64,000 nucleotides of DNA, from contig CP021424.1 in assembly GCA_002162095.1 (NCBI GenBank), positions 682,001 to 746,000 on the forward strand. Reading direction: 5' to 3'. This document shows, one piece after another, positions 24,366 through 33,018 of the stretch. The notes under the pieces were generated by a model that made no database searches, was not told where the DNA came from, and was given only the letters and a program-made list of their open reading frames with translations. Made by a program: the position numbers and the translations under genes. The stretch is from Armatimonadetes bacterium Uphvl-Ar2. Lineage in GTDB: Bacteria > Armatimonadota > Fimbriimonadia > Fimbriimonadales > Fimbriimonadaceae. Every line of letters starts with the position of its first letter. The first letter of the stretch is position 1.

Positions 24366-25343
24366 TTAGCGGCGTCGATAGATGCGCTCTTCGTCCGGCC
24401 CGTGAGTGCGGGTTTCGTCCGGTTCGCCCAGGTTCGGGTCCGCGCTCCCGTGCCACGGGATGCCCTCGCCCCACTCGGTCGGCGCCACAAACTGGTGCAA
24501 TTCATCCCACGCTCCCGCGCGCAGAAACTCACCCAGAGTGAAGGCCCCGCCCTCTACCAGCAGACTGGTCACGCCCTGCGCCCAGAGATGCGCCAGCACT
24601 CCGGCCACACCACCCCGCACTTCCTCGCGCAGCCACATCACCTCGCCCGGCGACTGAAACACCTTTTCACTCCCGCTGAGCAAAGATTGAGGGTCTAGGA
24701 CAATTTTGGTCACGGGCCGCCCCAGGCCCGGCAACCGGGCATCCAGGCGCGGATCATCCGCCCGCACCGTCCCCACGCCCACCAGCACCGCGCCCATCTG
24801 CGCGCGGAGAGCGTGGGCCGCCAGGCGCGCCGCCTCGCCCGTGATCCACTTGCTCGTGCCATCCAGCCGGGCCAGGTAGCCGTCCTGGGTGGTCGCCACC
24901 TTCAGTATCACGTAAGGGCATTGCCGCCGGGCCGCCGTCAGCCACACCCGGTTGACGGCTTCGGCCTCGGGCAAAGAGATCTGGTCCACCAAAACCCCCG
25001 CCGCTCGCAATGCTTCGGCTCCGCCCTGCGCTCTGGGGTTCGGGTCGGGCACGGCGTAAACCACCCGCGCCACTCCTGCATTGAGCAGGGCCATGCTGCA
25101 CGGCGGCGTGCGCCCATGGTGGTGGCAAGGCTCTAGCGTGACGTAAGCAGTGCCCCCCTGCGCCCGCTCACCGGCGGCCGCCAATGCCACGACTTCCGCG
25201 TGCGGTCCGCCCGCAAAGGCGTGGAACCCCTCACCCACCACCTCATTGCCGCGCAAAATCACGCAGCCCACGTGGGGGTTGGGCGCGGGGTAGCCCCCGG
25301 CCGCCAATTCGCATGCCCGCCGCAGGGCTTCAAGGTCCTTCAT
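24366..25343 (-). CDS. ribD: Bifunctional riboflavin biosynthesis deaminase/reductase RibD
   Basis: Second and third steps of riboflavin synthesis: deamination of the pyrimidine and reduction of the ribosyl side chain. 325 residues. N-terminal deaminase (1-140) with zinc ligands in GGPHAEVVAL and TLEPCHHHGRTPPC; C-terminal reductase (about 145-310) with YVILKVATTQDGYLA, TGEAAR, VGVGTVRADDPRL and VEGGAFTLGEFL. The C-terminal 25 residues are Glu/Asp/Arg-rich. Other rib genes are not nearby. It overlaps the preceding small gene by 4 bp. Confidence 0.94.
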   Translation of the reverse strand: MKDLEALRRACELAAGGYPAPNPHVGCVILRGNEVVGEGFHAFAGGPHAEVVALAAAGERAQGGTAYVTLEPCHHHGRTPPCSMALLNAGVARVVYAVPDPNPRAQGGAEALRAAGVLVDQISLPEAEAVNRVWLTAARRQCPYVILKVATTQDGYLARLDGTSKWITGEAARLAAHALRAQMGAVLVGVGTVRADDPRLDARLPGLGRPVTKIVLDPQSLLSGSEKVFQSPGEVMWLREEVRGGVAGVLAHLWAQGVTSLLVEGGAFTLGEFLRAGAWDELHQFVAPTEWGEGIPWHGSADPNLGEPDETRTHGPDEERIYRRR

Positions 25344-25645
25344 TCGCTTCGGTTCGCCCGGTTCTGGTGGTCCTTCAGCGAACCTTCAATCAGATTCTTC
25401 AGCGCCTCGCGCTCCCCTTCGATGAACTCCACCCGGGCCTGCCGCGCAATGAGCATGGCGCCCCACGCCGCGCCCAGCCACACCATGGCCGTGAGGCTGA
25501 AGCCCACCAGCAGGCGCTGGCCATACTGCGCTTTCACTCGGGCCGGTGCATTCTGCGGGGGGACGTCGCGGAACTGCAACGCCAACAAAAGCAACCCGGC
25601 CAGGCCGGTGACCACCAAGGCCGTTACGATGACTTTGAGCCGCAT
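25340..25645 (-). CDS. Small two-helix membrane protein of unknown function
   Basis: 101 residues, not recognised. It has two hydrophobic segments, about 5-25 (VIVTALVVTGLAGLLLLALQF) and 46-67 (LLVGFSLTAMVWLGAAWGAML), separated by a basic loop, then a charged C-terminal helix of about 30 residues. It overlaps rpe by 22 bp at its start and ribD by 4 bp at its end, so it is locked into the operon. A membrane anchor or assembly role is possible but nothing shows it. Confidence 0.75.
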   Translation of the reverse strand: MRLKVIVTALVVTGLAGLLLLALQFRDVPPQNAPARVKAQYGQRLLVGFSLTAMVWLGAAWGAMLIARQARVEFIEGEREALKNLIEGSLKDHQNRANRSE

Positions 25646-26274
25646 GCGTTCCTTAACCTCGCCACGCCTTCGGCGATACTCGGGGCCCGCATCAAGTAGC
25701 TCCCGGTAACAAAGGCGGTGGCCCCGGCCGCCGCGAGCTCCACAATCGTCTCGTGGTCCACGCCGCCGTCCACATGGATTTCTACGTCCGGTCGCCAGGC
25801 CCGAATTTGCGCGATCTTCTCCAAAGTGCTACGAATGAGCGATTGACCGCCCCAGCCCGGGTTCACCGTCATCACCAGCACCGCATCCGCCAGGTCCAGC
25901 AACGGATAGATCGCCTCGGCGGGAGTGCCGGGGTTCAGCGCAATGCTCGCCTCCAGCCCCCGCGACTTCAGCTCCTGCATTAACCGGTGGCTATGGACGG
26001 TGGCCTCCACGTGGAACGCAATGCGCTCGCACCCGGCCTTGTGAAAGGCCTCAAAGTGCAGCTCCGGCGTGTGCGTCATCAGATGGACATCAAACGGAAG
26101 CGTGCCTTCGCTTCGCAACGAACGCACCAGGTCCGCCCCGAACGTGATCGGCGGTACAAACTGGCCGTCCATCACGTCAAAGTGGATTCCGTCCACACCC
26201 GCCGCCACCATCGCGCGCACCGCCGGCCGGAACTCGGCCGGATCGCAAGAAAGGATGCTGGGCGTGATACGCAT
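25624..26274 (-). CDS. rpe: Ribulose-phosphate 3-epimerase
   Basis: Pentose phosphate enzyme interconverting ribulose-5-phosphate and xylulose-5-phosphate. 216 residues, TIM barrel. Conserved PSILSCD near the start, the metal/catalytic GIHFDVMDGQFVP, DVHLMT, VMTVNPGWGGQ and IHVDGGVDHET, then the phosphate loop GATAFVTGSYL. It starts 5 bp after the pseudokinase gene stop. Together with kdsD nearby it touches the ribulose-5-phosphate pool. Confidence 0.96.
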   Translation of the reverse strand: MRITPSILSCDPAEFRPAVRAMVAAGVDGIHFDVMDGQFVPPITFGADLVRSLRSEGTLPFDVHLMTHTPELHFEAFHKAGCERIAFHVEATVHSHRLMQELKSRGLEASIALNPGTPAEAIYPLLDLADAVLVMTVNPGWGGQSLIRSTLEKIAQIRAWRPDVEIHVDGGVDHETIVELAAAGATAFVTGSYLMRAPSIAEGVARLRNACGSKSS

Positions 26275-26279
26275 GGCGG

Positions 26280-28070
26280 TTAGCGACTCCTGGGCGTCGC
26301 GTCACTCGCCGTCTTAGTCTGCTGCGCCACAAACTCGCCGTTGTAGAACACGCGGAACGTCGCTTCGTTACCCACGCCCTCCGCCGTCACCGTGATGTTA
26401 TCGCCGGGCGCGTGCTCCTTCTCGTAGACCATGCGCGTGCGCTGCTCGTCGGTCAGTTCCACGCGTACCAGCACCTTCTCGGTGAACTCCGTACTCAGTT
26501 GGAACTTGGCGGTGTATTGGTAGCGCTGGGACATCGAGTTATTGGAGACCCGACGATCGCCCGCACTCAGCGTGACCACGACGCGGGTATCGCGGCGCAC
26601 CTTCTTCCCTTGCTCGGGCACCATCGAGACGATCATGCCTTCGGCCAGGTCCTTGCTCCGCATGCGGTTCGGGGATTCTTCCAACGTCAGTTCCAGGGCG
26701 TCCATCATGCTCCGGGCTTCGGCCATCGTCCGGCCCCGCAGGTCCGGCAGTTCCACCACGTTGCCCCCGGCGCTGAGCACCACCCCTACCGTGGAGTTTT
26801 CGCGGGCATTCTTCTTGCCCGCGTTCGGGTCGGACTTAATGACACTGCCGCGAGGCTGGGTGTCGCTCACTTCGTTCCGCACCACGGCCATATTCAGCTT
26901 CGCCTTCTTGAGGGCAGCTTCGGCCTCGGTGCGCGACATCCCGACGATGTTCGGCACGTCTACCAGCGGCGGCTTTTGCGAGTTGAAGAACAACCATCCG
27001 CCCACGGCGGCGAAGGCCGCAATGGTGCAGAGCAGAACCAGGGCGGTGAGACAAGCCGGGGCGCGATCGGGATCTTTCACTCGCTTCGTCTTCACTTTAG
27101 CCGGAGCGGGCTCGCCGGTTGCCTTCCCGGTGTCCGTCGATCGCTTGGTTTGCGGGTTCGCGACATTCAGCGAGGGGGCGACGGCCGGGGCCTCGTCCGC
27201 ATCCCGGCTGACGGTGGGGCGGATTGGCCACATCAGCGGCCGGCCAAACCGAAGGGCATCGCTCAGGCTCTTGAGGTCCTGCTGAAGTTCGTTCACGTCG
27301 CGGTAGCGATCGCTGGGGGTGCGACTGAGGCACTGCTTCACCAGTTCTTCAAGCGCCGTGGGCACGGAGCTATTCAGTTGGCGGACCGGTACCCAGTCCC
27401 CTGCCGCTTGCTTAGCCGCAATACTCGTGGAGGTATCGCCCGGGAACGGCAACCGGCCCGTGAGCATTTGGTAAATCAGAACGCCCAGCGCGTAGATGTC
27501 CGTGCGGACGCTGGGCGAGGAATCCGTTTGCAGTTCCGGCGCCATGAAGGGGGCCATGGTGCGGTACACCGCCCGGCCGATCCGCTCGCTAGCGCCGTAG
27601 GCTTCCCAAAACCCGCCCATCACGAGCTTCACTTGTTCCTGGGGAGTGCAAATGACATTGCGCGCTGAGAGGTCGCCGTGCACCAACCCTGACTGGTGCA
27701 GAGCCAACAGGCCATCGCAAATGCCGATGGCGATCTCCAGCGCCACCGAAACACTGAAAGACGACAAGCGGCGCAGCCGATCCTCCAGCGTTACGCCGGG
27801 GGTGTGCTCGCACACCAGGAATGCGGGGACCTCATCCCGATTCCAGCTGTAGATCCGCTCGATGGACGGGCTGAGGACGCCCAGTTGCTTATCCATCACC
27901 ACGCGAACCGCGCCCAGGAACTCCGTCTCGAGATCTAAGCCCGTGCGAATCGCCCGGACGGTGACTTCCCGGTTGGCCACGCGGTCCAGCGCCTTGTAGG
28001 TCTCAAAGACCGGCCCTTCATCCCCTTCTTGCAGCAGCTCGTAGCGCCCGCCGAGCACCGAACCAATCAT
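26280..28070 (-). CDS. PASTA-domain Ser/Thr kinase homologue, probable pseudokinase
   Basis: 596 residues: kinase fold (about 8-275), Pro/Ala/Lys linker, one membrane helix (about 341-362), then two PASTA domains outside the membrane (about 368-434 and 438-505) and a C-terminal beta-rich region. PASTA domains in PknB/PrkC kinases bind peptidoglycan pieces. The kinase fold keeps VHGDLSARNV (Asp133, Asn138), an APE motif (MAPEL) and the Asp-Ile-Tyr-Ala-Leu-Gly helix. It lacks the ATP-binding Lys (VTVRAI, Arg39), the Gly-loop pattern, and DFG, which reads MGG (151-153). It probably signals without phosphate transfer, though this is inference. It overlaps the 80-residue gene by 4 bp. Confidence 0.88.
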   Translation of the reverse strand: MIGSVLGGRYELLQEGDEGPVFETYKALDRVANREVTVRAIRTGLDLETEFLGAVRVVMDKQLGVLSPSIERIYSWNRDEVPAFLVCEHTPGVTLEDRLRRLSSFSVSVALEIAIGICDGLLALHQSGLVHGDLSARNVICTPQEQVKLVMGGFWEAYGASERIGRAVYRTMAPFMAPELQTDSSPSVRTDIYALGVLIYQMLTGRLPFPGDTSTSIAAKQAAGDWVPVRQLNSSVPTALEELVKQCLSRTPSDRYRDVNELQQDLKSLSDALRFGRPLMWPIRPTVSRDADEAPAVAPSLNVANPQTKRSTDTGKATGEPAPAKVKTKRVKDPDRAPACLTALVLLCTIAAFAAVGGWLFFNSQKPPLVDVPNIVGMSRTEAEAALKKAKLNMAVVRNEVSDTQPRGSVIKSDPNAGKKNARENSTVGVVLSAGGNVVELPDLRGRTMAEARSMMDALELTLEESPNRMRSKDLAEGMIVSMVPEQGKKVRRDTRVVVTLSAGDRRVSNNSMSQRYQYTAKFQLSTEFTEKVLVRVELTDEQRTRMVYEKEHAPGDNITVTAEGVGNEATFRVFYNGEFVAQQTKTASDATPRSR

Positions 28071-28309
28071 GCCGAGCTTGACTCCTCATCGACGGGAGTG
28101 GATTCGGGATCGGACGAGGGCGATTTGGCGAAGCCTAGCGCGACGCCGGCCACCAAGAGAAGCAGCGCAAGACTGCGGATGGCGGGGACATCAATCTGCA
28201 CGGCGTATTGCGCCGCCGTCCCATTAAAGAAATGGTACTGACTGGCGGCATAGCCCAACCCCAAGATCAGGGTCAACAAGATGACGTATCCGAATCGCAG
28301 GCGTTCCAT
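28067..28309 (-). CDS. Small two-helix membrane protein of unknown function
   Basis: 80 residues, not recognised. Hydrophobic segments at about 6-24 (FGYVILLTLILGLGYAAS) and 44-60 (IRSLALLLLVAGVALGF), then a Ser/Pro/Asp/Glu tail. Its start abuts the aroB stop and its stop overlaps the pseudokinase start by 4 bp. The close coupling to the pseudokinase makes it a candidate membrane partner (inference). Confidence 0.75.
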   Translation of the reverse strand: MERLRFGYVILLTLILGLGYAASQYHFFNGTAAQYAVQIDVPAIRSLALLLLVAGVALGFAKSPSSDPESTPVDEESSSA

Positions 28310-29334
28310 CAGGGTTGCAGGGCTTTGCGAACGTCGTCAGCGGCGACGTCGGTGTGCAGTTTACACGCCCCGTAACCATGCAACAGAGCCAAGGCGAGGT
28401 GAGTGCCCTCGGCCTTTTTATCTTTGCGCATAAAGGGCAGCAAGTCCTCGAGGGAGAGGCCCGCCGGGAGGGCGGTGGGGAGGCCGTGGGCATGGCACAT
28501 AGTGCGCAGATCATCCACTGCGTTGGGGGTGATGAGCCCGAGACGCGCGCTGAGTTGGGCTTCGGCCACCATTCCGATGCTCACGGCTTCGCCGTGGACA
28601 TATTCCGCGTAGTTCGTCACGGCTTCCAGGGCGTGCCCAATGGTGTGCCCGAAGTTGAGCGTGGCGCGGATGCCGAGACGTTCGAATTCATCCGCTTCGA
28701 CGACTTGCGCCTTGATGGCGATGCTGCTTTGGATGATCTCGGGCAGGCGTGGGTCTTGAGCGTTAAGGACGGGGGTGCGGAGGGTTTCGATCAGCTCGGG
28801 GCTGGCGATCCAGGCCGCTTTGATGACTTCGGCCATTCCGGCTCTCAGTTCCCTTTCGGGAAGAGTGGTGAGGGCATCGAAGGGCACGATGACGCTTTGC
28901 GGCGGCCAGAAGGCTCCGGCCAGGTTCTTGCCAGCGGCGAGGTCCACCCCGACTTTGCCGCCCACGCTGCTGTCCACCATGGCGAGCAGGCTGGTGGGCA
29001 CCTGGACGAGGGGAATGCCCCGCATATAGCTGGCCGCCACGAACCCCGCCAGATCGCCCGTGACCCCTCCGCCTACAGCGACCAGAGTATGCGAGCGGAG
29101 CGCCCCGAGTTGGGCCAGTTGCTCGTGCAATTGGCCGGCCATCACCCAGATTTTGCTGGCTTCGCCGGCGGGGAAAGTGAGGCGGGGCAAAGCTTGAAGG
29201 TTCTCGGGGAGCAAGCGCTCTACATTGGAATCGGTGATGAGGATCGCCTTCTCGGGGAGGGACGACGCGACGTCGGCCCATTGCCCCCACGCGACTTGGT
29301 ATTCACCGGCGTGGTGCCTTACGGTGAGGGCCAT
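28309..29334 (-). CDS. aroB: 3-dehydroquinate synthase
   Basis: Second step of the shikimate pathway, NAD- and metal-dependent. About 341 residues from the ATG at 29334, chosen because GGAGG lies 7 bp upstream; the frame runs on to 29400 but that part overlaps the aroK end. Conserved VAVGGGVTGDLAGFVAASYMRG, QVPTSLLAMVDSSVGGKVGVDL, KNLAGAFWPP and the metal-ligand segment ATLNFGHTIGHALE. It begins inside the end of aroK, the usual aroK-aroB pair. Confidence 0.95.
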   Translation of the reverse strand: MALTVRHHAGEYQVAWGQWADVASSLPEKAILITDSNVERLLPENLQALPRLTFPAGEASKIWVMAGQLHEQLAQLGALRSHTLVAVGGGVTGDLAGFVAASYMRGIPLVQVPTSLLAMVDSSVGGKVGVDLAAGKNLAGAFWPPQSVIVPFDALTTLPERELRAGMAEVIKAAWIASPELIETLRTPVLNAQDPRLPEIIQSSIAIKAQVVEADEFERLGIRATLNFGHTIGHALEAVTNYAEYVHGEAVSIGMVAEAQLSARLGLITPNAVDDLRTMCHAHGLPTALPAGLSLEDLLPFMRKDKKAEGTHLALALLHGYGACKLHTDVAADDVRKALQP

Positions 29335-29830
29335 GCGCATGCCTCCATTACGTGCTTCGCCACCTGTTCGGGCTCTTCCTCCGTCACATCCACAATGCAA
29401 TCAGCCTGAGAGTACAGCGGGGTCCGGGCGTCAAGGATCGCTTTCACGCGGTCTTGCCAGTCATCGTGGGCCAGGAGCGGCCTTCGCATCCGACCTCGCT
29501 CGAGCCGGGGGCCAGGACTTCGAGACTTGCGCGTAGCCACACCACTTTGCCGCGCCGCCGCATCTCGGTCCAGTTGTCCTCTCTCAGAACCACACCACCG
29601 CCGGTGGCAATGACGCAAGCGTCGTCGGGGAGTTGTCGGAGTTCGTTGGCTTCGTGGTCTCGGAAGGTTTGCTCACCGAGCCGCTCGAACAGCCAGGGCA
29701 CGCTGTGCCCCAGGTTGCGGGCAATCACCCGGTCGAGGTCATGAAAAGGGACCTCGGCCAGATCGGCAATGGTGCGTCCGATGGTGGATTTGCCACTGCC
29801 CATCATTCCAACAAGAATCAGGGATTGCAT
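29319..29830 (-). pseudogene. aroK: Shikimate kinase, interrupted by a -1 frameshift
   Basis: Phosphorylates shikimate before chorismate synthesis. Frame one starts at 29830 with MQSLILVGMMGSGKSTIG (Walker A), has DLDRVIARNLGHSV, the shikimate-binding ATGGGVVLRE and VVWLRASLEVLAP, then loses homology. The missing C-terminal half, RRPLLAHDDWQDRVKAIL to the end, lies in another frame to 29319. Adding one base to the run of five at 29507-29511 restores CTG GCC CCC CGG and a full-length protein of about 170 residues. It may be an assembly error, since this gene is normally essential, or a real mutation. Frame one alone ends at 29444. Confidence 0.85.
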
Positions 29831-29894: not shown

Positions 29895-31490
29895 CTACGG
29901 TCCGCCGAGGCCGTTCTCATCGGCCGCCACGATCTTGGGCGTGACGAAGATGATGAGCTCTTGCGTGTTGTAGGACTTGTTTTGACCGCGGAACAGGCGT
30001 CCGATGATCGGCAAGTCGCTCAGCAGCGGGATGCGGCTGGTGGAGACACGGTCTTGCTTACGGGTGAGGCCACCCAGAGCAATCGTTTCGCCATCCTTCA
30101 CCGTGGTCACCACGGCCAGACCTTGGTTGAGGAGGTCGGGGATTTCCGTTCCATCCGGGCTTCGGCGGATTTCACCGAATTCCGACACCTGCGGGGTGAG
30201 GTACATGGTGATGGTGCCGTCGCCGTTCACGCGGGGCTTCACGTTAATGAAGGTGCTCGACGTGATCGGAATCGGGTTGAACGTGGTGGTGATCCCACCG
30301 GGGCCGTTCGATGTGGTCGCCGAGAAAATCGTCGTTTGGACCTGACTGAACAGGAACGCCGGTTGGTTTTCCAGCGTGCGGACGATCGGGGCGCTCACAA
30401 CGCGACCGTTACCTTCGGAGAGGAAGGTGCGGAGGCGAGTAGCCACGTTGCCTGTGCTGTAGTTGATGAACACCGGGTCGCTGGTTCGAGCGAACGAACC
30501 GGGACGGTTACCGGCGAAGATCGTGCCACGGGTGTAGAGCCAGTCGATACCGAGCGAGGTTTCCAGCGAGCGGGAAGTCGTCACGAATTCGAGCTTGATC
30601 AGAACCTGGCGCGGGGCCACGTCCAATCGCTCAATGACGCCACGGAGTTCGCTGATCGCATCGGCCGTACCGAAAACGAGGAGGCTGTTGGTCGCCGGGT
30701 CCCACACGACGCGGTCGATGCCTTCCGGCACGAGACCGGTTCCGCCTTCGAGACCGAGGTCGAAGTTACCGCCGCCGCCTTGGCCACCCTGGCCGCCGCC
30801 GCCACCGAAGTTGCCGCCGCCACCTTGGCCGCCGCCGCCACCGCCGCCACCCGGGATACCCTGGTTAGCGCCTTCCGTCGGAAGGGAGATGGCATCGCGG
30901 CCGTTGTAAACTGGTTGACCGACACCGACGATGGAGTCAGGCTTCGGAGGAACCGACATCCCCTGGTTAGCGAACCCGAGAATCTGGTTCCCGAAGTTGA
31001 ACATGTCGTCCCAGTCGCTGTTGCGGAAATTGGGAACGGACCGATCGCCCTTAGCTCGCGAGAGCATATAGAGCAAGTAATCGGCTCCCATGTGATTGGC
31101 CGCAATGCGCTCAATCACGACCGGTCGCTTCAGGATCGGCGAGAGGTCGGGGGTAACGGTCGTGCCACCGGATTGCGCCGGGGCCGAGCCCGGACGCAGG
31201 ATCCACACGCCGCCTTCGTCTTGGACCGCATAGGCACCCGCCGCTTCCGCGATGTACTTGATCGCTTGTTCGGCCGTCGTGTCCTTGAGGGTCAGGGAGA
31301 TTCGTCCGTAGGCATCCGACGGGCGAATGACGAAGTTCATTCCGGTCTGCTCACCCAGGGCGCGGACCGCCGCCTCCAGGGATGCATCCTGGAGAACGAC
31401 GTCCACCTTACGGGAGAGCTGACCTTGGGCGAGAAGTGACGCCGCAAGAGTCACGGCAGCCAACGCTGTGCAAAGGAATCGCATGTTCAT
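29895..31490 (-). CDS. pilQ: PilQ-like secretin of the type IV pilus
   Basis: Outer-membrane pore for the pilus fibre. 531 residues with a signal peptide (about 1-21). An STN/N0 domain (about 27-100, KVDVVLQDASLEAAVRALGEQTG), an unassigned region, a Gly/Gln/Asn-rich segment (about 214-243), an N-domain (about 250-300, DPATNSLLVFGTADAISELRGVIERLD), and the secretin domain (about 340-520) with RVVSAPIVRTLENQPA, INVKPRVNGDGTI and DGETIALGGLTR...IPLLSDLPIIGRLF. It is last in the pilM-N-O-P run and followed by a terminator. Confidence 0.92.
   Translation of the reverse strand: MNMRFLCTALAAVTLAASLLAQGQLSRKVDVVLQDASLEAAVRALGEQTGMNFVIRPSDAYGRISLTLKDTTAEQAIKYIAEAAGAYAVQDEGGVWILRPGSAPAQSGGTTVTPDLSPILKRPVVIERIAANHMGADYLLYMLSRAKGDRSVPNFRNSDWDDMFNFGNQILGFANQGMSVPPKPDSIVGVGQPVYNGRDAISLPTEGANQGIPGGGGGGGGQGGGGNFGGGGGQGGQGGGGNFDLGLEGGTGLVPEGIDRVVWDPATNSLLVFGTADAISELRGVIERLDVAPRQVLIKLEFVTTSRSLETSLGIDWLYTRGTIFAGNRPGSFARTSDPVFINYSTGNVATRLRTFLSEGNGRVVSAPIVRTLENQPAFLFSQVQTTIFSATTSNGPGGITTTFNPIPITSSTFINVKPRVNGDGTITMYLTPQVSEFGEIRRSPDGTEIPDLLNQGLAVVTTVKDGETIALGGLTRKQDRVSTSRIPLLSDLPIIGRLFRGQNKSYNTQELIIFVTPKIVAADENGLGGP
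30769..30862. repeat. GCC/CCG-rich low-complexity tract in pilQ
   Basis: Imperfect GCC/CCA triplet repeats that encode runs of Gly with single Gln, Asn and Phe on the minus strand. It is coding low complexity between two secretin subdomains, not a mobile repeat. Confidence 0.7.
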
Positions 31491-31522
31491 GAAAGGGTCG
31501 TTAGTTGTCGATTTTTAAGGGT

Positions 31523-32215
31523 TTAGCGTGCACCGCGGCCACCACCGCCACCGCCGCCGCCGAAGCCGCCGCCGCCGCCACCAAAGCCGCCGCCGCCGCC
31601 GCCGCCGCCGAAGCCGCCGCCGCCGCCGAAGCCGCCGCCACCGCCGCCGAAGCCACCGCCGCCGCCACCAAAGCCGCCGCCACCGCCGCCAAAGCCGCCG
31701 CCACCGCCCATACCACCGCTAACAATCGTGCTGTTCTCGGGTTGGGCACTGGCCAAGTTCGGCAGACTGTCGGCGCCCAGAAGGACGGCCAGCAGGGCCG
31801 GGTCAATGCTGTTGAGCGGAATGCGCGCCCATGTCGTGCCGCTGGCTTGCGGTACGTCCGGTACGTCCGGCAGGCCGGGGAGAGCTTCATCGCGCTTCGG
31901 CGTGATGTAGTAGATCCCGCCTTCTCGGCGCCACGTCGCATTCACCTGGTCCAGGATGGCGCGCAGAACCGTCTCGAACGGACGATCCTTCACGCTGAGC
32001 TGGATGAGGCCTTGCACGGCCGGGTCAATGCTGTAGTCAGCGCCAACCATTCGGAACAGAACCCGAATTGCTTCGCGGACATCCGCATCTTGAAGTTCGA
32101 GGCTCGAGACGTTCTTGTTCGCCATATCATCTTGGCGAGCATGAGCCAGACCCGGTGCGGACACCAACGCCAAGCTCAGTGACATCACGAGCATGCTGCT
32201 TACGATTCGCTTCAT
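31523..32215 (-). CDS. STN-domain secreted protein with Gly-Phe repeat tail
   Basis: 230 residues from MKRIVSSML at 32215, with AAGGGAA-type ribosome site upstream; a longer frame to 32293 is not needed. Signal peptide to about residue 30 (LAHARQ), then an STN/N0-like domain (about 38-110: LELQDADVREAIRVLFRMVGADYSIDP...ILDQVNATWRREGGIYYITPKR), which resembles a free secretin N0 domain. The last 65 residues are a tract of GGGGGF-like repeats ending RGAR. Between pilP and pilQ, it probably works in the periplasmic secretin complex (inference). No named family recognised. Confidence 0.82.
   Translation of the reverse strand: MKRIVSSMLVMSLSLALVSAPGLAHARQDDMANKNVSSLELQDADVREAIRVLFRMVGADYSIDPAVQGLIQLSVKDRPFETVLRAILDQVNATWRREGGIYYITPKRDEALPGLPDVPDVPQASGTTWARIPLNSIDPALLAVLLGADSLPNLASAQPENSTIVSGGMGGGGGFGGGGGGFGGGGGGFGGGGGGFGGGGGFGGGGGGGGFGGGGGGFGGGGGGGGRGAR
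31536..31712. repeat. GGGGGF-encoding microsatellite-like tract
   Basis: About 180 bp of near-perfect GCC/CCG/AAG triplets; on the minus strand it encodes about 11 units of four to eight Gly plus Phe. Such tracts can change length by slippage. Confidence 0.8.
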
Positions 32216-32292
32216 GTTCTTGTTCCCTTTTCGATAGTCAGAAACTTTCGCTTCTTTGTTTATAACGCCTACGTTACCCGACGAGTTACGCA

Positions 32293-33018
32293 TTATTCCT
32301 GCCCCTGCAAGCTACCGGCACCACTCGAAGTGCCAGCGCCGCGTCCACCACCAGCTGCACCCGCACCGGGTCGGCCACCGCCGCCGCCTTGGGCACCACC
32401 GCCGCCGCCACGGTTGAATCCATCACCAAGCGAAATCACTTCTACTTGGTCGGACCCCACGCGTTGCACGGTCACTTCGGTTTCCGTAAACCGGATCACT
32501 TGCCACGTTTCTTCTCCAATCTGGAACGTGGTGCCCGGGCGCAGGTCAACGAAGACCGGTCCGCGAGCCGTGTTGATCTCGGCCAGAGCCACGACCCCGT
32601 TCTGAGCCAGAAGGATTCCGGCGAGGCGCCATTGCGGCACCGGCACACGGGCCGGGGGCGGCGCTTCGGATTCTTCTTCCGGCAGTTCGAAGTATTGGCC
32701 AAATCCGCCTCCTTCGCTTAGAAGCCGCTCAACCATTTGATCGCGGTCAAACGTGCGTTCCGAGGCCAACAAGGCGAAAACGTCAGATCGGTTCGGATAG
32801 TACTTGGTGAGGCTGTCTTCCTTCACCTTTGCGGCCGTTTCCGGACCGGGGTTGGTCACCGGGAGGCCAGCACCCGCCACGATGGCAGGCTTCTCCGGTT
32901 CCGCCGGGGTTCGCGGGATCACCGCTTCTGCCATCGGAATCGGGGCACAACCGGCCATCGCCAAGGCGACACCAAGGGCCAGAAGAGCAAAGGGTTGGTT
33001 CCGTTTCATCGTCTTCAC
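32293..33018 (-). CDS. pilP: PilP-like pilus alignment lipoprotein
   Basis: Inner-membrane lipoprotein thought to connect PilN/PilO to the secretin. 241 residues with a lipobox ALAMAGC near residue 25. A charged, flexible region follows, then a PilP-like beta domain (about 128-195: WRLAGILLAQNGVVALAEI, GPVFVDLRPGTTFQIGEETW, EVTVQRVGSDQVEV). The last 45 residues are Gly/Ala-rich (GGGGGAQGGGGGRPGAGAA...). Assignment rests on the domain and on gene order M-N-O-P-Q; sequence identity to known PilP is not visible at a glance. The start abuts the PilO stop. Confidence 0.78.
   Translation of the reverse strand: MKTMKRNQPFALLALGVALAMAGCAPIPMAEAVIPRTPAEPEKPAIVAGAGLPVTNPGPETAAKVKEDSLTKYYPNRSDVFALLASERTFDRDQMVERLLSEGGGFGQYFELPEEESEAPPPARVPVPQWRLAGILLAQNGVVALAEINTARGPVFVDLRPGTTFQIGEETWQVIRFTETEVTVQRVGSDQVEVISLGDGFNRGGGGGAQGGGGGRPGAGAAGGGRGAGTSSGAGSLQGQE

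Follow-up and report, generated by a model that had tools for sequence, protein, structure and literature searches.

PASTA kinases are known as sensors of the cell wall that phosphorylate. Binding of muropeptides has been described for them (PMC4632501). Bacterial pseudokinases are listed in seven families in a 2025 review, namely ActPs1-3, GLW, CP1, DYD and DLHK, and in the available part of this review the word 'PASTA' occurs once, displayed in the reference list (PMC12599244). The window analysed here (the whole 64-kb stretch of DNA) lies in a genome consisting of a single contig of 2.63 Mb (G000) and encodes a protein of 596 amino acids with an ATG start (26280..28070, minus strand, as are all window features below), which was described from the ORF listing, Pfam, an alignment to StkP and an AlphaFold2 model. 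A sequence-only reading had assigned it the architecture of a PknB-type kinase, with a kinase fold, one transmembrane helix and two PASTA domains. This architecture was borne out by Pfam (Pkinase at 93 bits and two PASTA matches, all exceeding the cut-off), by AlphaFold2 (mean pLDDT 89.9, alignment of 61 rows) and by fold search, in which PknA/PknB were the nearest solved folds of the kinase domain (Z 31-35, rmsd 1.7-3.0 Å). The kinase-fold domain comprises residues 9-271 (27258..28046; Pfam and fold search) and the AlphaFold2 model places the single transmembrane helix at residues 339-364 (26979..27056). PASTA domain 1 (26772..26963) was found by Pfam and by the PASTA search of the genome, and PASTA domain 2 (26565..26756) by the latter. 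The AlphaFold2 model also contains a C-terminal beta-sandwich at residues 516-587 (26310..26525) that the earlier reading had overlooked.

The protein is thus like PknB, PrkC and StkP in its full-length domain order, its fold, the transmembrane helix, the PASTA domains and the C-terminal beta domain. It differs from them in the loss of catalytic residues (Arg39, HGD, MGG) and in its match to the NCBIfam model NF033483 (PknB_PASTA_kin), which spans residues 2-559 of 596, including part of the beta-sandwich, but scores 298 bits against a curated cut-off of 450. The canonical PASTA kinases of the phylum are located in an FHA-RodA-PBP locus, whereas the pseudokinase has an aroB-rpe locus.

Likeness to the described pseudokinases is partial, as far as the available text of the review goes (PMC12599244). 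ActPs3/MviN is likewise a bacterial membrane pseudokinase with a tie to the cell wall, and its pseudokinase domain in Mycobacterium tuberculosis forms a dimer and does not bind ATP; however, MviN spans the membrane several times, belongs to peptidoglycan synthesis, has no PASTA and has lost the HRD Asp, which is kept here. ActPs2 and DYD share the change of the beta3 Lys to Arg, and DYD also lacks the alphaC Glu (here Val58). In ActPs2, however, the HRD Asp has become Asn, whereas Asp is present in 34 of 36 proteins of family f1, and DYD carries a DYD motif where this protein has MGG; no DYD was seen in families f1, f2 and f5. Neither family is credited with a PASTA domain in that text. EssB/YukC is a single-transmembrane pseudokinase that acts as a scaffold, but it is part of type VII secretion, lacks PASTA and has all three motifs degraded. 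The protein fits none of the published pseudokinase families checked, with ActPs2 and DYD set apart by their descriptions in the available part of PMC12599244. A literature search found no PASTA pseudokinase, a weak negative as subscription papers were mostly outside its reach.

Lost, retained and newly constrained residues

Alignment to StkP agreed with the earlier reading that the VAIK Lys is replaced by Arg39 (27954..27956) and the DFG motif by Met151-Gly152-Gly153 (27612..27620), that the G-loop is non-canonical, and that Asp133 and Asn138 are retained. Further losses had been overlooked: the HRD Arg is Gly, which gives an HGD motif at residues 131-133 (27672..27680), the alphaC Glu is Val58, the catalytic-loop Lys is Ser135 and the P+1 Ser/Thr is Met172. 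In all, the 596-aa protein has lost six residues or motifs with a catalytic or regulatory role. By the general criterion for pseudokinases, the VAIK Lys and the DFG Asp are gone while the HRD Asp stays as Asp133; the fold-maintaining residues Glu179, Asp191, Gly196 and Arg255 are also retained. HGD catalytic loops occur in active Bud32, RIO and aminoglycoside kinases, and the rule that HGD means a dead kinase was therefore rejected.

Relatives were sought within Armatimonadota, treating the top match in each genome as the orthologue, a choice backed by synteny at most loci. A match was present in 60 of the 61 genomes searched, G000 counted. The DFG Asp, the alphaC Glu and the P+1 Ser/Thr are each absent from all 36 proteins of family f1, which includes the window's protein, and present in all 16 canonical PASTA kinases of the phylum. 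The beta3 Lys, likewise found in 16/16 canonical kinases, is Arg in 33 of the f1 proteins, Lys in two and Gly in one; all 36 have Gly for the HRD Arg. Asn138 is retained in 26/36, Asp133 almost throughout. In one genome (L058, G032:C287) the orthologue lies in an open frame of ~1219 aa, twice as long as normal, in which the kinase and PASTA domains gave separate matches.

That the substitutions are assembly errors in an active PASTA kinase, or mark a recent pseudogene, is an explanation to which we give almost no credence. No point in its support was found. A separate assembly, 94% identical (L004/L033), carries identical substitutions, and together with orthologues in dozens of genera this excludes sequencing error; open frames and purifying selection further argue against a pseudogene. 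One scan of genome contigs gave a single match only. Among named records the closest is 'Chthonomonas sp. UBA2785' (NCBI: Armatimonadota), whose NCBI class may differ from the family codes used here. In the one genome pair compared, G000 and the 94%-identical relative, dN/dS was ~0.035 for the kinase domain (where dS was high, 1.39), 0.033 for PASTA and 0.171 for aroB. The lost residues are thus shared by orthologues, and the pseudokinase reading is strongly supported by these shared losses, by purifying selection and by new conserved residues in the activation segment.

The latter include a WxxY motif (27597..27608), with Trp155 in 43/43 and Tyr158 in 40/43 proteins of f1 and f5; Trp155 is absent from the canonical PASTA kinases of the phylum. 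Arg98, Pro174, Ala177 and Arg274-Phe275-Gly276, the last being a new constraint of the pseudokinase clade after the kinase domain (27243..27251), are also conserved in f1 and f5, whereas canonical kinases do not conserve them. At 27 residues, the activation segment is of normal length. AlphaFold2 predicts an ordered helix at residues 162-175 (27546..27587), with Met172 at the P+1 Ser/Thr position, at high pLDDT, whereas residues 157-171 of the canonical control L071 are predicted as disordered (pLDDT <50); this contrast is suggestive, since the alignments had 61 and 22 rows, respectively. The new, invariant Trp155, together with the helix predicted where the activation loop would otherwise be flexible, suggests that the module is frozen and non-catalytic. 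Of the published PknB dimer contacts Arg10, Leu33 and Asp76, f1 retains the Arg and does not conserve the other two, so no claim of dimerisation is made.

The locus and its history in the phylum

With few exceptions the genes in f1 and f5 follow the order aroK-aroB-small TM-pseudokinase-rpe-small TM2-ribD, and the linkage of aroB, rpe and ribD reaches many further families. Directly upstream lies a gene for a small two-TM membrane protein of 80 aa (28067..28309), which overlaps the pseudokinase gene by 4 nt and aroB (28309..29400; start codon uncertain) by 1 nt. The overlap noted earlier from the sequence is real, a 4-nt ATGA, and the tie is stronger than the sequence alone could show, as in most members of the clade, across the phylum, a two-helix ORF occupies the same position. 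When these loci were scanned for hydrophobicity, most had an ORF with one or two TM-like stretches between aroB and the gene; similarity in its sequence is detectable within f1 but seldom in f5, and in all other cases it is recognized only by position and topology. Most canonical kinase genes had no ORF of this kind upstream in the same scan, although L080 had one with two stretches. Downstream, rpe (ribulose-phosphate 3-epimerase, 25624..26274) is a conserved neighbour, and between rpe and ribD lies a second small two-helix protein of 101 aa (25340..25645), conserved in f1 and most of f5. The latter overlaps the 3' end of rpe and no NCBIfam match was found for it. By eye, the region 29895-33018 near aroK holds secretin-like and long glycine-rich ORFs (GGGGFGGGGG repeats), perhaps related to a type IV pilus secretin.

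In a tree built by a quick method with the main motif columns left out, all HGD-type proteins form one clade (SH-aLRT 98) and the canonical PASTA kinases fall outside. Of the 24 proteins in the other families of the clade, 21 retain the Lys and 17 the DFG Asp. Family f2 retains the Lys (13/13) and has lost the DFG Asp (13/13); f5 has Arg39 and DFG in 7/7, with Asn138 replaced in 7/7. The minimum number of changes on the tree is two for the HRD Arg, five for Lys39, six for the DFG Asp, two for Trp155 and 12 for Asn138, counts that by themselves carry no direction. Read most simply, loss of the HRD Arg came first; the Lys and the DFG Asp followed, separately and several times, since most relatives outside the order retain both. 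Since active kinases with HGD exist, basal members of the clade that have kept Lys, Asp133, Asn138 and DFG could be active; judged by their residues, this may hold for the 18 rows with Lys, Asp133 and DFG Asp and a non-Arg HRD position. The label 'pseudokinase' is firm only for f1, followed by f2 and f5. The phylum holds a graded series, from canonical proteins through HGD forms with Lys and DFG and forms lacking one motif to those lacking both, along which the path from kinase to pseudokinase can be traced.

The canonical kinase L071 comes after FHA, FtsW/RodA and PBP genes, and RodA and PBP adjoin the canonical kinases L148 and L149. Genome G245 has both kinds, a canonical FHA-RodA-PBP-linked kinase (L148) and an aroB-linked HGA-type protein (L077), which favours a duplication with later loss of the canonical copy and makes a simple relocation of one PASTA kinase less likely. 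G247 combines a canonical kinase by RodA/PBP (L149) with a divergent one (L093), for which aroB linkage was not seen. PASTA is present in 278/291 genomes of the phylum and in 192/194 of the high-quality ones. Tentatively, and with some doubt, we propose that the unit of two-TM protein and PASTA pseudokinase replaced phosphorylation by a PASTA kinase as the order-wide wall-sensing system, after a duplicated kinase had lost catalysis stepwise and the canonical copy had gone with the FHA-RodA-PBP cluster.

Possible mode of action and rival explanations

The explanation we favour, with moderate confidence, is a vertically inherited wall-facing receptor whose dead kinase domain serves as a scaffold or allosteric module. 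The PASTA repeats and the C-terminal beta-sandwich would face the cell wall, and the one transmembrane helix would connect this ectodomain to a cytoplasmic kinase fold without canonical phosphotransfer. Wall ligands on PASTA may shift how the receptor is oriented or assembled jointly with the two-TM protein. The frozen kinase fold could offer a surface for docking or allostery; possible targets are the one canonical Hanks kinase of G000 and the PP2C/FHA proteins of this genome, or a factor of wall synthesis. The two-TM protein would be the first candidate partner, which gives the proposal a concrete name to start from. Since in a whole order of little-studied Armatimonadota the sole PASTA protein, as seen in G000, is a dead kinase that is strongly selected all the same, and lies beside a tiny membrane protein, the wall sensor probably signals via binding of partners and not by phosphorylation. 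The scaffold role suggested earlier is plausible. If the sole PASTA protein of a lineage is indeed a conserved dead kinase, the sensing and scaffolding roles of this family would be separable from phosphorylation.

Counting against this explanation, Asp133 (34/36 in f1) and often Asn138 (26/36) are retained, which pure scaffolding would not need, and according to the available text of the review the beta3-Arg kinases KSR1 and EphB6 can still bind ATP (PMC12599244). Nucleotide might thus still be bound, with ATP as a structural switch or with non-canonical catalysis by Arg39 and Asp133 without the DFG metal site. ActPs2 and DYD, which also have the beta3 Arg, have been modelled with ATP (PMC12599244, available part), but here the DFG Asp, the alphaC Glu, the catalytic-loop Lys and the P+1 Ser/Thr are all lost, Asn138 changes repeatedly on the tree and the activation segment is a predicted ordered helix, so that we regard nucleotide binding as rather unlikely. 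The kinase domain could also be a relic that anchors the PASTA ectodomain in the membrane, with a wholly extracellular function, and overproduced PASTA domains alone can indeed affect growth (PMC4632501). This seems highly improbable, as the kinase domain is constrained like PASTA (dN/dS 0.035 and 0.033), has gained invariant residues and is more conserved within f1 (mean identity 0.41 against 0.37 for PASTA).

The earlier reading left it to be seen whether G000 has an active paralogue. It has no active PASTA paralogue: the pseudokinase gives the only PASTA matches in this genome, and the sole other Pkinase match (G000:C1:433823-434635) is a canonical kinase without PASTA, with Lys, HRD and DFG intact. 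A narrower form of the receptor explanation pairs the pseudokinase, as the wall-sensing member, with this kinase, and a similar second match is present in nearly all genomes of the order. The two genes are, however, unlinked in the genome, and the joint presence of so common a type of kinase carries little weight; we consider such a pair unlikely. Neither of the two FtsW/RodA matches of G000 is near a kinase match. The genome has one PP2C and six FHA matches; FHA protein(s) and the PP2C phosphatase are adjacent at L114:6156-7857, beside a cyclophilin gene and with no kinase match alongside. A link of the pseudokinase to this pair was rejected because of that neighbourhood, which is not near the pseudokinase. 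Elsewhere in the phylum, the NF033483 search detected a cluster of many kinase-domain matches in one genome of family f42 (G258:C13:135482-158075).
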